Below are positions 51,368 to 55,806 of a stretch of 64,000 bases of DNA, piece by piece. Position numbers and translations under genes: made by a program. This DNA comes from Acidobacteriota bacterium (GTDB lineage: Bacteria; Acidobacteriota; Terriglobia; Terriglobales; Acidobacteriaceae), in NCBI GenBank assembly GCA_021846275.1, contig JAJZBZ010000003.1, positions 1 through 64,000 on the forward strand. The letters run 5' to 3'. The notes beneath the pieces were generated by a model, which was given only the letters and a program-made list of their open reading frames with translations, did not search any database and had not been told where the DNA came from. Position 1 is the stretch's first letter. Each line of letters starts with the position of its first letter.

Positions 51368-51910
51368 CTATTCGCTGTAGTGGAGCAGGCTGAAGACATC
51401 GAGGCCGGGAAAGCGGTCGCGTCCGTGGAGGAAATCGAGTTCGACGGCAAAGCCGAGGCCGACCGGGATGCCGCCAAGCTGTTCCACAAGCTGGAGCGTT
51501 GCCTGCATGGTGCCGCCGGTGGCGAGCAGGTCGTCCACCAGCAGGACGCGCTGTCCGGGCTGGATCGCGTCGAGGTGGATTTCCAGCGTGTCGGAGCCGT
51601 ATTCGAGGTCATAGCTGACGCGGGCGACGGGAGCGGGGAGCTTGCGCGGCTTGCGGACGGGGACGAAGCCTGCGTTGAGCCGGTAAGCGAGCGCGGGGCC
51701 GAAGATGAAGCCGCGGGCCTCAATGCCGAGAACGAGATCGATTTTTTTTTCCAGCCAGTGCGAGGCCATGGCGTCGGTGAGGGTGGCGAAGCCGGTGGGG
51801 TCTTTGAGCAGGGTGGTGATGTCGTAGAAAAGGATGCCGGGCTTGGGGTGGTCGGGCACGGTGCGGACGAGAGATTTGAGGGCTTCGGCAGGGATGGTGT
51901 CGTGGGTCAT
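51368..51910 (-). CDS. apt: Adenine phosphoribosyltransferase
   Basis: Apt salvages adenine to AMP using PRPP. The 180-residue protein has the PRPP-binding signature [13 protein letters not shown], the flexible-loop region, R-K-P-R-K-L-P, and the family start [23 protein letters not shown] 51910 has GGAG eight bases before it, and an upstream ATG at 51940 is less likely. It follows the acylphosphatase gene on the same strand by 58 nt, so the two may be co-transcribed. Confidence 0.95.
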
Positions 51911-51968
51911 GGCTTGCTCCGGGTGATTTTGCGGGTGCATGTGGAGATGAGTCGGTCGCGGCGAGCGT

Positions 51969-52250
51969 TTACCAGACCCCTTCGATCTGGAATGGGGTCA
52001 GCGCGGCGGCTTCCGCGTCGTCAAGCCGGTGTTCGATGACCTGATCGACGCGGCTGCCGCGCGGGCCACGGGTGATGGCGCGGTGGAGGTCGGCGAGATC
52101 GGATTCCGGACCGGAGGCGAGGACTTCGACGGCTCCGTCGTCGGTGTTGCGGACCCAGCCGAGGAGGCCGAGTTCGCTGGCTTCGCGGTGGACAAACCAG
52201 CGGAAGCCGACGCCCTGTACGCGGCCAAGAACGAGGAAATGACGGACCAT
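51969..52250 (-). CDS. acyP: Acylphosphatase
   Basis: A 93-residue acylphosphatase that hydrolyses carboxyl-phosphate bonds. The phosphate-binding loop V-Q-G-V-G-F-R carries catalytic Arg17, and Asn35 in G-W-V-R-N-T-D-D-G positions the nucleophilic water; both are present. The length is typical. GGAGAG lies upstream of the ATG. It precedes apt on the same strand. Its metabolic role is general, perhaps clearance of acyl phosphates. Confidence 0.93.
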
Positions 52251-52330
52251 GGGAGGCTGCTCTCCATATTTATTTTAGGGGTTCGCAGCGGGGCGGGCCA
52301 GGGGTGCGGAACTGGCGGCGCGAAAATGGC

Positions 52331-52359
52331 TTGACGCCCGGTGTGGAGTGGCGGTAAGT
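52331..52359 (+). promoter_or_regulatory. Candidate promoter of the Cys-peptide RNA
   Basis: TTGACG (52331-52336) and TAAGTT (52354-52359) have a 17-bp spacer. Transcription would begin near 52366, just before an AAAGGAGG Shine-Dalgarno at 52374-52381. Confidence 0.45.
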
Positions 52360-52393
52360 TCAGGCTACACGGGAAAGGAGGATGATCCAGCCT

Positions 52394-52453
52394 ATGAATT
52401 CAGATTGTTCGAGTTGTTGCATCACGATGCGTGAGGTGACTGCGGCTGAGTAA
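52394..52453 (+). CDS. Possible 19-residue Cys-rich leader peptide
   Basis: A short frame reads MNSDCSSCCITMREVTAAE and ends in TAA. It has three Cys in five residues. AAAGGAGG lies 12 nt before this ATG; an in-frame ATG at 52382 would add four residues but sits too close to the Shine-Dalgarno. A strong RNA stem begins on the base after the stop codon. This layout resembles amino-acid-responsive leader peptides, where ribosome stalling on Cys codons changes RNA folding, but no downstream cysteine gene is present. A small functional peptide or a chance frame in a structured RNA are the alternatives. Confidence 0.4.
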   Translation: MNSDCSSCCITMREVTAAE

Positions 52454-52600
52454 GGGCTTCGCGCCTGAATCCAGCGGCCTCGCCGGAGATCGACTCCGGC
52501 TCCGGCTTTCGCGGCGAGCGCGACAGCCCAGTCAACAACCAGTCAATTTCAACAGATCACCCATTGGCGGCCCGTAACGCGAACAGGCGTTTCGGGCCGC
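52454..52600 (+). ncRNA. Candidate structured RNA downstream of the short ORF
   Basis: Visible stems: GGGCTTCGCGC (52454-52464) pairs with GCGCGA (52518-52523) and AGCCC (52525-52529), leaving one bulged C. Inside, GCCGGAG-ATCGA-CTCCGGC competes with TCGCCG/CGGCGA. After a 37-nt unpaired A/C/T-rich linker comes GCGGCCCG (52567-52574) with CGGGCCGC (52593-52600), extended by AACGC/GCGTT around a six-base loop. The last hairpin could end transcription although no U tract follows. No known RNA family was recognised. The remainder of the 52601-52713 spacer shows nothing. Confidence 0.5.
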
Positions 52601-52784
52601 TGGTGCGTTTGGCGGGAGCAGGCACGTTTGGTGGCGCGGATGCGTTTTGTTTGCTGCAAGCGAGAATTTTCGAGGAAAAGCGATCGGGCATGCCAGGTCA
52701 TACGATTTTCTAGTACACTTTCGCGGTAGCTTGAGGCGCGTGGAATGGCTGCGCCTGTGAATCTGACCTGAGAGGCTCTGTCTT

Positions 52785-54983
52785 ATGAGGAAGTATTCGT
52801 TGTTTGCTGTGGCGGCTTTGTTTCTGGCCGCTTTTGTTGCCCACGCTCAGCGCTTTCAGCGTCCGGCGCCGGCCTGGGCGCATGCGGCGTGGATGAATCA
52901 GTCGCTGAGCGCGGGCGAGCGCGCCGACCTGGTGCTGAAGCAGATGACGCTGGATGAGAAGATTGGCATGATCCACGGCGAAGGCATGGCAGGCTGGGGA
53001 CAGCCGAATGCGTTTGCGTATCTGGGCAATGGCGGCGCGGGGTTCACGCTGGGCGTGGACCGGCTGGGGATTCCGATCATACAGATGAGCGACGCGGCGT
53101 ATGGGGTACGTTCGAGCGCGATGAACGGGCGGTATTCGACGGCGTTGCCGTCGAACCTGGGCGCGTCGTCGAGCTGGGATACAGATGCGGCGTGTGAGTA
53201 TGGCGCGCTGATCGGGCGCGAACTGCGGGCGCAGGGCTACAACATGACTCTCGGCGGCGGCGTGAACATCACGCGCGAGCCGCGCAACGGGCGCACGTTT
53301 GAGTATCAGGGCGAGGATCCGATTCTGGCGGGAACGCTGGTGGGCAATCGGATTCGCTGCGAACAGGCGCAGCATGTGATTGGCGACATCAAGCACTATG
53401 CCGTGAACGACCAGGAGAGCGGGCGCAACGAGGTGAATGCGATCATCAGCAAGCGCGCGTTGCAGGAGACGGACCTGATGGCATTTCACATTGGGATCGA
53501 GATCGGCAATCCGCAGGCGGTGATGTGCAGTTATAACGCGATCAATGGAGACTTTGCCTGCGAGAACAAGTACACACTGACGGATGTGCTGCGAAAGCAG
53601 TGGGGCTTCAAGGGGTTTGTGCTTTCCGATTGGGGTGGGACGCACTCGACGGAAAAAGCCTCCGCCGCTGGACTGGACAATGAGGAGCCAGGCCAGGTGT
53701 TCTATGGTGAGGCGTACAAGCAGGCCGTCGAAAGCGGCAAGATTCCGATGAGCGAGCTGGATGAGCATGTGCGTCGGATTCTGCGTGCGGAGTTTGCGGC
53801 CGGCCTTGTCGATCATCCCGTTCACAAGAGCGTGGTGGATGTGTTTGGCGATCTGGCGATTGCGCGGCATATCGAGGAGCAGAGCATTGTGCTGCTGCGC
53901 AATGAGCACCATCAGCTTCCGCTGAATGCCAGCGCGGTGAAGACGATTGCCGTGATTGGCGACCATGCCGACTCCGGAATGCTCTCCGGCGGAGGGTCGG
54001 CGCAGGTAGATCCGCCGGGTCACCATCAGGCGCGCTGGGGCGAGCATGTGTGGTTTCCGACCTCGCCGCTGAAGGCGATCCAGGCGATGGCTCCGAATGC
54101 GCAGGTGAGCTTTGATGCTGGCAGCGACCCGCAGGCGGCCGCTACGCTGGCAGCCAAGGCGGATGTGGCGCTGGTCTTCGTCAACCAGTGGACGAGCGAA
54201 GGCATGGACCTGAATGACCTGACTCTGGCCAACAACCAGGATGGACTGGTGGAGGCCGTGGCCAAGGCGAATCCGCACACGGTGGTGGTGGTGGAAAGCG
54301 GGACGGTGGTGACGATGCCGTGGGTGGATCAGGTGTCGGGAATCGTGGAGGCGTGGTACGCCGGTTCGGATGGCGCGGCGGCGCTGGCCAATGTGCTGTT
54401 TGGCAAGGTGAATCCTTCGGCGAAGCTGACTGTGACCTTCCCGCTGAGCGTGGCCGATCTTCCACATCCGACGCTGGTCAAGCCGCCAGCGCACTCCGAG
54501 GGCGCGGCGCCGGTGCAGCGGCATGTGCTGACCAGCCCGACCTTCAGCGTGAACTATGACGAGGGCATCGAGGTTGGCTACAAGTGGTATGACGCGCAGA
54601 AGAAGCCAGTCCTGTTTCCGTTCGGCTACGGGCTGTCCTATACGACCTACAGCTACTCCGGGCTGAAGGTCACGCCGGGCGCGAAGCCAACAGTGAGCTT
54701 CACCGTGAAGAACACTGGTTCGCGGGCTGGCGTGGAGATTGCCGAGGTTTATGCCGCGCTGCCGCCAAGCGCCAACGAGCCGCCGAAGCGGCTGGTGGGT
54801 TGGAGCCGTGTCACACTGAATCCCGGCGAAAGCAAGCAGGTGACGGTCTCGATCGATCCGATGTACCTGTCGATCTTTGACGAGGCATCGAACGTGTTCA
54901 AACTGGTGCCGGGCAGCTACGGATTCATGGTGGGCGGTTCGTCACAGTCGCTGCCGCTGCACAAGAGCGTGACGCTGGAGTAG
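52785..54983 (+). CDS. Glycoside hydrolase family 3 beta-glucosidase-like enzyme
   Basis: A 732-residue exported GH3 enzyme that removes terminal beta-linked sugars. It has a signal peptide (to A-H-A-Q, about residue 22). The N-terminal barrel has K-H-Y-A-V-N-D-Q-E and the nucleophile Asp282 in G-F-V-L-S-D-W-G-G. The alpha/beta sandwich domain follows (A-V-I-G-D-H-A-D; L-F-G-K-V-N-P-S-A-K-L-T-V-T-F-P). A fibronectin-III-like C-terminal domain (G-Y-G-L-S-Y-T-T-Y; V-S-F-T-V-K-N-T-G-S-R-A-G) completes the protein. A TACACT at 52714-52719 gives a promoter with a leader of about 60 nt. Substrate (beta-glucoside, xyloside or other) is not fixed by sequence. No polysaccharide-utilisation neighbours are present. 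Confidence 0.92.
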   Translation: MRKYSLFAVAALFLAAFVAHAQRFQRPAPAWAHAAWMNQSLSAGERADLVLKQMTLDEKIGMIHGEGMAGWGQPNAFAYLGNGGAGFTLGVDRLGIPIIQMSDAAYGVRSSAMNGRYSTALPSNLGASSSWDTDAACEYGALIGRELRAQGYNMTLGGGVNITREPRNGRTFEYQGEDPILAGTLVGNRIRCEQAQHVIGDIKHYAVNDQESGRNEVNAIISKRALQETDLMAFHIGIEIGNPQAVMCSYNAINGDFACENKYTLTDVLRKQWGFKGFVLSDWGGTHSTEKASAAGLDNEEPGQVFYGEAYKQAVESGKIPMSELDEHVRRILRAEFAAGLVDHPVHKSVVDVFGDLAIARHIEEQSIVLLRNEHHQLPLNASAVKTIAVIGDHADSGMLSGGGSAQVDPPGHHQARWGEHVWFPTSPLKAIQAMAPNAQVSFDAGSDPQAAATLAAKADVALVFVNQWTSEGMDLNDLTLANNQDGLVEAVAKANPHTVVVVESGTVVTMPWVDQVSGIVEAWYAGSDGAAALANVLFGKVNPSAKLTVTFPLSVADLPHPTLVKPPAHSEGAAPVQRHVLTSPTFSVNYDEGIEVGYKWYDAQKKPVLFPFGYGLSYTTYSYSGLKVTPGAKPTVSFTVKNTGSRAGVEIAEVYAALPPSANEPPKRLVGWSRVTLNPGESKQVTVSIDPMYLSIFDEASNVFKLVPGSYGFMVGGSSQSLPLHKSVTLE

Positions 54984-55245: not shown

Positions 55246-55806
55246 ATGGCGATCCCCGCCACACAGATGCGTCCGGGCATGATTATCAAGCACAATGATC
55301 AGCTTCACCTGGTGTTTGCCGTGGAGCACCGCACGCCGGGCAACCTGCGCGCGTTCATCCAGGCGAAGCTGCGCAACATTCGTTCCAATGCGATGTTTGA
55401 GCATCGCTTTCGTTCCGGCGACGCGATTGAGCGCGTGATCGTAGACGAGGTCGCGATGGAGTTTCTTTACAACGACGGCGACGACTACTACTTCATGAAT
55501 CCGGAAGACTATGAGCAGACGGTGCTGAAGAAGTCGACGCTGGGGGATGCGGTGGAGTATCTGACGCCGAACCTGCAGATCAAGGTGAGCTATTTTGACG
55601 GGGTTGCGGTTGGCATTGACCTGCCGACGACGGTGGAGCTGACGGTGGTGGAGACGGAGCCGGGGATCAAGTCGGCGACAGCGTCGAGCGTGACCAAACC
55701 GGCGCGGACGGAGACGGGCCTGGTAGTGCAGGTGCCGCCGTTTATCAACGAGGGCGAGCGGATTCGCGTGGACACGAGCGAAGGGACGTACCTGAGCCGG
55801 GCGTAA
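55246..55806 (+). CDS. efp: Elongation factor P with Asn at the loop tip
   Basis: EF-P relieves ribosome stalling at consecutive prolines. The 186-residue protein has the three beta-barrel domains: an N-terminal KOW-like domain, an OB domain with Y-Y-F-M-N-P-E-D-Y-E-Q and the C-terminal signature A-S-S-V-T-K-P-A-R-T-E-T-G. The loop that enters the peptidyl-transferase centre reads T-P-G-N-L-R-A-F. Aligned to E. coli EF-P (P-G-K-G-Q-A-F), modified Lys34 corresponds to Asn33 here, so neither the lysyl (EpmA) nor the arginyl-rhamnosyl (EarP) site is at the tip. Expression starts from a promoter near 55141 with a leader of about 95 nt. Confidence 0.95.
   Translation: MAIPATQMRPGMIIKHNDQLHLVFAVEHRTPGNLRAFIQAKLRNIRSNAMFEHRFRSGDAIERVIVDEVAMEFLYNDGDDYYFMNPEDYEQTVLKKSTLGDAVEYLTPNLQIKVSYFDGVAVGIDLPTTVELTVVETEPGIKSATASSVTKPARTETGLVVQVPPFINEGERIRVDTSEGTYLSRA

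Follow-up and report, generated by a model that had tools for sequence, protein, structure and literature searches.

A probable small gene with an extended 16S rRNA match in an Acidobacteriota contig, its relatives in other phyla and its likeness to Ms_IGR-5

At positions 52331-52608 (+) of the window, the name used here for the whole 64,000-nucleotide stretch of Acidobacteriota DNA that was analysed, a promoter, an RNA start, a long ribosome-binding site, a 19-codon frame, a folded RNA and a terminator-like hairpin make up what looks like an independent small gene, usually one per genome. This small, nearly always single-copy gene would give rise to an RNA of roughly 240 nt. Comparison of relatives supports its own promoter, a conserved 5' end, a ribosome-binding site complementary to 16S rRNA, two helices termed P0 and P1 and an end hairpin, together with a frame, mostly of 12-20 codons, that is kept open while its free codons vary. 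The reading that we consider probable, with room for doubt, is that of a small mRNA that grips the ribosome and whose fold is reset by translation. An earlier note on this DNA had named a TTGACG/TAAGTT promoter, the sequence AAAGGAGG, here taken as the core of a Shine-Dalgarno sequence (SD), the short frame, a stem, an inner hairpin and a 13-pair hairpin, and all of them are in place, as listed here with the basis of each assignment.

52331..52360 (+): promoter, −35 TTGACG at 52331-52336 and −10 TAAGTT at 52355-52360, with 18 nt between
52367..52371 (+): putative RNA 5' end, reading ACACGGG from 52367; ACAC is invariant across the 16 sequences of alignment A1
52368-52371 (+): helix P0, 5' strand CACG; covariation
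52372..52392 (+): extended SD, 18 pairs with GGCUGGAUCACCUCCUUU and 2 with the following CU, A52382 bulged; duplex energy, 16S tail as read in relatives
52374-52381 (+): SD core AAAGGAGG; sequence
52394..52453 (+): 19-codon ORF MNSDCSSCCITMREVTAAE, ATG at 52394, TAA at 52451-52453
52430..52433 (+): helix P0, 3' strand CGTG, within the ORF; full 4-bp match in relatives
52435..52442 (+): helix P1, 5' strand GGTGACTG, within the ORF, forming with 52433-52434 an SD-like GAGGTGA; alignment A3
52454..52529 (+): stop-proximal stem with inner hairpin, beginning directly after the stop, 11 pairs and one bulge (52454-52464 with 52518-52529); fold and aligned relatives
52553..52561 (+): helix P1, 3' strand CAGATCACC, A52556 bulged; CAGn-YACC word in relatives
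52562..52608 (+): terminator-like hairpin, 13-pair stem of 52562-52574 with 52593-52605, U tract weak in the window copy; fold, with a stem at the same place in class members

The distribution of the element was followed outward from its own genus. A 301-base query against 41 genomes (15 from the genus, 10 from the rest of the family and 16 from outside it) found the element in 16 of them including its own, namely 14 of the 15 in the genus, 2 of the 10 and none of the 16. The 16 aligned copies (A1; 14 from the genus and 2 from other genera) share the invariant blocks ACACGGGAAAGGAGG and CGTGAGGTGACTG. One genus member, G008, has an additional partial match at a contig end (L018, G008:C53); this second copy has its frame out of register and could reflect decay or contamination. 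A covariance model built from the 14 genus and 2 other family sequences (R1) matched 112 of 399 genomes of the class, 99 of 110 in the window's family and 13 of 289 elsewhere as far as the list shows, with one copy per genome apart from two overlapping matches in G139. For what follows, a class set of 76 loci combined the 16 from the 41-genome search with 60 of the 108 other class matches, chosen for spread; L001, a duplicate of L002, and L018, being partial, at a contig end and out of frame, were dropped.

Beyond the class, the exact pattern AAGGAGGTGRTCC, 15-45 bases, GAGGTGRCTG was searched in genome_contigs and matched at least 120 stretches, mostly from Actinomycetota (Streptomyces, Mycobacterium, Micromonospora and others), and the matches listed also include records from Acidobacteria, Sumerlaeota, Deltaproteobacteria, Nitrospinae, Zixibacteria, Spirochaetia and Phycisphaerales. 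The same pattern gave no exact match in viral_contigs, and hence no sign of viral carriage there. Since the search pattern itself demands the SD core and GAGGTGRCTG, both are necessarily present in the 120 cross-phylum loci; independent evidence comes from P0, the start codon and the promoter and, for these 120, also from the downstream word CAGNCACC. A second covariance model covering several phyla (R2), trained on both the acidobacterial and the Ms_IGR-5 sides, matched 55 of 247 genomes of the phylum, once each, and 82 of 198 Actinomycetota genomes (a single match in 81, two in the remaining one); the distribution is patchy, with no R2 match in 192 and 116 genomes of these two sets. Exactly one copy was found by R2 in 13 of 14 named genomes, 10 of the 13 having supplied rows to the model, and its matches to the rows of alignment A3 (the window and those 10 of 13 genomes) hold by construction. 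In the spirochaete's phylum, 8 of 149 genomes carry the element. The Phycisphaerales locus, L211, was rejected as a chance match, R2 finding nothing in that genome. Another locus, L154 (JAGWNV010000124.1), is labelled Acidobacteriota, reads like the Acidimicrobiia copies and is possibly misbinned, and the rare-phylum copies, which lie on single MAG contigs, may be contamination. The earlier note had let its unit stand or fall with homologues in which the stems and the frame are conserved; homologues were found, and frame and helices are kept in them.

The RNA could make an extensive contact with the 3' end of 16S rRNA, which the earlier note overlooked. Apart from one additional A, the stretch AAAGGAGGATGATCCAGCC is complementary to the 16S 3' end read in relatives. 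A 16S tail pattern was matched in 4 of 21 genomes, two of them from the genus, with no match in the window's own assembly, and all four relatives' tails read GGCTGGATCACCTCCTTTCTAAGAG. With this tail, GGAAAGGAGG-A-TGATCCAGCC can make 20 pairs with a single bulged A (−38.0 kcal/mol). Two of these pairs, the outermost, involve the CU that follows CCUCCUUU; this CU is possibly no longer part of mature 16S rRNA. By comparison, the duplex energy of the 35 mechanically called window ORFs of at least 200 codons has a median of −15.0 and a best value of −29.3 kcal/mol, and none of 2000 random 34-mers from the window paired with 16S as strongly. The median is −37.4 kcal/mol over the 76 class members and −34.1 kcal/mol over the 120 cross-phylum matches listed, and a run of at least 15 pairs with the tail is found in 190 of these 196 members, the remaining 6 having 10-13. 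The invariant ACAC was also considered as a complement of the 16S precursor and rejected, the four relatives reading CTAAGAG after CCTCCTTT; it is instead accounted for by P0. As seen in the sequence, the P1 3' strand CAGATCACC could itself pair with the SD as an intramolecular mimic of 16S. Elsewhere in the window, the gene at 55246-55806 (+) encodes an Elongation factor P (Pfam) with the loop HRTPGNLRAF, the tip residue of which seems to be N; in E. coli Elongation factor P, the loop tip carries a modified lysine.

The length of this match raises the idea that the RNA caps ribosomes, with idle 30S subunits being parked by the covering of the 16S 3' tail until translation of the frame releases them. 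The pairing can extend past the tail into what we take to be the base of the last 16S helix, beyond the need of initiation, and the element is nearly single-copy in several groups. In gammaproteobacteria, parking of this kind is done by the protein RMF. Capping would require a very high RNA abundance, however, and it has no need of a kept frame, yet all 76 class members keep one; we consider it unlikely.

The frame itself is conserved to a degree that the other two frames do not approach. A start codon 3-20 nt past GGAGG that stays open in frame through GAGGTG is present in 76 of the 76 class members examined, whereas the same test in the other frames gave 22 and 0. For the 120 cross-phylum matches listed, the count is 111 in frame against 22 and 2; the other 9 loci have no in-frame ATG, GTG or TTG start within the range used. 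The codons free of other constraints tell a different story from the frame. Positions 1, 2 and 3 differ at 0.40, 0.40 and 0.44 of comparisons among 16 class ORFs of equal length, at 0.29, 0.33 and 0.44 among 9 ORFs of another length, and at 0.63, 0.51 and 0.41 among 99 actinobacterial ORFs. Third-position excess is thus small overall, with some among the 9 ORFs, and the comparison gives little indication that the amino acids are under selection.

These numbers bear directly on whether the element is a functional micropeptide gene with the peptide as its product, which we regard as quite unlikely. The kept frame would suit such a gene, as would an ending (R/S/C/L)EV(T/A) common to several phyla, a free part rich in Ser and Cys in Terriglobia (212 S and 99 C in the free parts of the class peptides; the window's free codons are 52397-52429) and some third-position excess in one 19-codon group. 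Overall, however, synonymous preference in the free codons is small, that of the Ser/Cys-rich ones in Terriglobia included, and RNA pairing can account for the conserved codons, that for the residue ahead of EV among them, as they fall within helices P0 and P1.

The cysteines had drawn attention in the earlier note, which saw the parts as lying where an attenuator or a small peptide-encoding RNA would put them and looked to conservation of the Cys codons. This did not hold up, as 16 of the 76 class peptides have no cysteine and 28 have one, and L017, within the genus, has none. Conserved Cys codons 5' of a sulfur or cysteine gene were not found among the 76 class peptides and in the neighbour survey. 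Because of the little third-position excess and the 16 peptides without cysteine, a cysteine attenuator is unlikely.

Nor do the neighbouring genes speak for a leader. In the window the element lies between a divergent acylphosphatase gene at 51969-52250 (−) and a GH3 gene at 52785-54983 (both Pfam). In a survey made with a crude ORF caller and with Pfam run on single representatives of clusters, the neighbour clusters at the 76 class loci include ThiG (21), RuvC (12) and, by eye, GH3 (11), and those at the other 120 listed loci, mostly from Actinomycetota, include a THAP4-like heme-binding protein (35), a folate-binding GCV_T protein (32), a rhodanese (13) and a Fur regulator (12); GuaA and topoisomerase IB, named by eye, adjoin single copies. 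Neighbours are common within lineages and differ between them, and because they vary between genomes, the element is not the leader of the GH3 gene. The view that the element acts in cis on the downstream gene (here GH3), as an attenuator or leader possibly responsive to cysteine, has in its favour the leader-like order of the parts and the GH3 gene downstream in several relatives. It is set against downstream genes that range from GH3, ThiG and RuvC to GuaA and topoisomerase IB, the element's own terminator-like hairpin and the missing cysteines; with Cys content and neighbours both variable, the cysteine attenuator and the GH3 leader were rejected, and this reading is largely refuted and scarcely credible. 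What holds from the earlier note is its alternative of a short-frame RNA that forms a unit of its own and is not tied to GH3; the variable neighbours bear this out. A TACGATTTTCTAGTACACTTTCGCGG block ahead of the GH3 gene (window 52700-52735), likely the GH3 promoter, recurs 3' of the element in L003, L004, L005 and L008. Genes for tRNA adjoin two copies, L058 from another family (2432-2619) and L146 from a Nitrospinae genome (5237-5326).

A promoter belonging to the element is supported by comparison more than by the window copy. The −10 of the latter matches TATAAT at 3 of 6 positions, and a consensus promoter scan of 51500-53200 called no promoter. Across relatives, ACAC is preceded by TTG and TAnnnT at promoter spacing in 68 of 75 class members and, from the matches listed, in 99 of 119 non-class loci; shuffles show this arrangement in 0.7% and 0.2% of cases, respectively.

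Downstream of the frame the RNA is strongly folded. None of 200 dinucleotide shuffles of 52450-52610 is predicted to fold as strongly as the sequence itself (z −4.7). The excess is smaller over the longer stretch 52359-52620, where 4 of 200 shuffles do as well (z −2.24) and where the minimum-energy fold of the window copy contains neither P0 nor P1. Both helices emerge from comparison. In P0 the RNA 5' end pairs with the four bases that precede AGGTG; in the window these two strands are CACG and CGTG. Four standard pairs, taken as the best of three registers, can form in 167 of 195 loci (L186, cut at the locus end, was excluded) in 14 sequence combinations, whereas 500 deals of the partners averaged 85 such loci and never exceeded 98.

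P1 pairs GGTGRCTG at the end of the frame with the downstream CAGNCACC. Its CAGn-YACC word is found in 63 of the 76 class members, 13 being without it, and in 109 of the 120 cross-phylum matches listed, against 14% of shuffles; the first-match word search mis-assigned some partners, as in L116. Opposite A, the variable base is mostly U, in 37 of 40 matched class members and 17 of 20 cross-phylum loci among the matches listed; opposite G, it is C or U in 18 of 21 and 77 of 89, respectively. Taken together, A stands with U 54 times and with C 5 times, and G with U 53 times and with C 42 times (Fisher 1.6e-6, uncorrected for relatedness). Alignment A3 was assembled from 63 of the 196 loci, picked by hand, of which L058, L070, L072, L102, L116, L198 and L227 were then left out for long middles or, in L116, a wrong P1 word. 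Across its 56 sequences, both partners of a pair have changed in 42 cells of P0 and P1; 5.5 such cells are expected from shuffles, and none of 500 shuffles reached 42; related sequences inflate this shuffle control, and slid partners likewise fall short of 42. The rows of A3 had been chosen for the P1 word, and three of the five P1 pairs are invariant. RNAalifold recovered P1 from A3 and did not recover P0; from 14 actinobacterial sequences it gave an extra stem around the start codon and a P1 extended to nine pairs.

An end-hairpin stem of at least 8 pairs is present in 61 of 63 class members against 38% of shuffles. The corresponding count in the others, 107 of 109 from the matches listed, is uninformative because 83% of shuffles have such a stem. 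A T-rich tail follows the hairpin in 42 of the 63 class members and 62 of the 109 others from the matches listed. As read from the sequence, an alternative stem of TGACTGCGGC with GCCCAGTCA is possible.

Unrelated small mRNAs could each have gained a long 16S match, so that the likeness across phyla would be convergence and not homology: the near-universal 16S tail forces the SD part, and the family-trained R1 places just 25 of 100 listed cross-phylum loci correctly at E 0.001 (Deltaproteobacteria, Zixibacteria, Spirochaetia, Sumerlaeota and Nitrospinae loci being among them), with one match at a false place (L158). Convergence does not explain, however, why ACAC, P0, GAGGTGRCTG, the stop, CAGNCACC and the end hairpin come in the same order, nor why an acidobacterial copy exceeds the Ms_IGR-5 cut-off end to end; we think it very unlikely.

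A further alternative takes its start from the segment before the P1 3' strand. This segment reads CCAAUCCCAACAG in many class members and AAUUCC in Actinomycetota; at 52542-52555, the window copy deviates, reading UCAAUUUCAACAG. The RNA could be a trans-acting, base-pairing sRNA with this conserved segment as its seed and the frame as a side function. Consistent with this, CAAU..C.ACAG is invariant in all 16 A1 sequences, and the segment is mostly unpaired in consensus folds. Such a role leaves the 20-pair 16S match, the kept frame and P0 unexplained, however, and the window copy departs from this seed, so that we hold the role for a possible but rather unlikely explanation.

The preferred reading, a small mRNA that engages the ribosome, takes translation as the key event because of the kept frame with varying codons, the helices at the frame end and the oversized 16S match. 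Free 30S subunits would bind the extended site very tightly, and a translating ribosome would have to open both helices and the stop-proximal stem; the RNA would therefore have two states, one ribosome-free and folded, the other ribosome-engaged and open. Initiation capacity, in the sense of free 30S subunits with an intact 16S 3' end, might then set the fold, the stability or the exposed bases of the RNA. Its translation as an act would matter, and the exact sequence of the peptide much less. Candidate effects are its own decay, release of the segment before the P1 3' strand, or the parking of 30S subunits.

Among known RNA families, the closest likeness is to Ms_IGR-5 (RF02471), an actinobacterial sRNA in Rfam. 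The two share the order ACAC, GGAAGGAGGUGGUCC, GUGAGGUGGCUG, AAUUCC, CAGUCACC and end hairpin, but the window copy falls below the Ms_IGR-5 cut-off, and the consensus given by cmscan shows no P0 helix. Rfam at its cut-offs found nothing in the window, the window copy had no match to RF02471 (cut-off 45 bits) at the gathering threshold nor up to E 5, and a minus-strand match to Pxr in a sensitive scan of 52300-52640 (14 bits, E 4.5) was put down to chance. Tested against RF02471 with relaxed limits, 6 of 12 acidobacterial loci gave full-length matches, 1 above the cut-off and 5 below, and the other 6 none up to E 1; the one above is L078, from the window's own family, with 49.5 bits. The earlier note's remark that it did not recognise a known family needs amending in so far as this relative passes the cut-off, though the window copy does not match. 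A search of 101 class genomes with RF02471 gave 3 matches at E ≤0.001, none over the cut-off, and the 14 named control genomes gave none. Of nine cross-phylum loci, L121, L116, L122 and L148, the last from Zixibacteria, passed, four fell below the cut-off and L146 had no match. A wider family that includes Ms_IGR-5 is in keeping with two results: a model built on one side recovers members of the other, as R1 finds L078 and L078 passes RF02471, and the P0 helix is present, as CACG/CGTG in the window and in 167 of 195 loci overall.

Among the records listed, a literature search found no function for Ms_IGR-5 and nothing relevant on acidobacterial sRNAs, and it found no paper that reports an acidobacterial member by name or links Ms_IGR-5 with an extended SD, the search lying mostly outside subscription journals. 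Actinobacterial relatives are reported to be expressed: for Streptomyces lividans, PMC8079986 gives Ms_IGR-5 the entry "yes" under RNA-seq validation, and PMC10454040 has IGR-5 overlapping ncMSMEG15794c in M. smegmatis, where IGR-5, judging from its name, would be Rfam's Ms_IGR-5; nothing on this RNA was found in passages of PMC3828370, PMC4109619 and PMC13009471.

Two alphaproteobacterial systems and one protein offer further comparison. The consensus of CC2171 (RF01867) from Caulobacter starts with GAAAGGAGGUGAUCCAGUG, likewise an extended SD, followed by a possible GTG start, but the matches obtained are sub-threshold (L063 23.9 bits, L055 22.4, cut-off 75); the model had no match in the window's genome, and the control was found in Caulobacter vibrioides, 1 of the 14 control genomes. 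RMF would occlude the same 16S 3' tail, but it is a protein. The likeness to the small mRNAs rreB and rreR of alphaproteobacteria, reported by Hahn et al. in 2017 (RNA Biol 14:1353), lies in a short frame combined with a long complementarity to the 16S 3' end. Their frames reportedly have 14-18 codons and their complementarity 16-17 nt; rreB is said to be a 165-nt small mRNA with a 17-nt SD that is bound to 30S subunits and weakly translated, and loss of its start codon reportedly stabilises the RNA. At least 16 nt of 16S complementarity just 5' of a short frame, the defining feature of the rreB type, is found here, with 20 pairs, one bulge and the ATG one base further in the window. The comparison is by description and not by sequence, and rreB belongs to another phylum and reportedly starts with GTG, as opposed to ATG here. 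For Ms_IGR-5, the small-mRNA view gives a concrete, testable function. As a tentative proposal, to which we give somewhat less than an even chance, an old and nearly single-copy RNA family may extend over Acidobacteriota, Actinomycetota and other phyla, perhaps including rreB and CC2171, in which an extended SD and a frame of dispensable sequence would act as a sensor of free 30S subunits, or of the integrity of the 16S 3' end, with P0 and P1 as its switch. If this is true, many bacteria have an RNA devoted to reading or buffering their capacity for initiation, and its frame would be conserved for being translated and not for its peptide.
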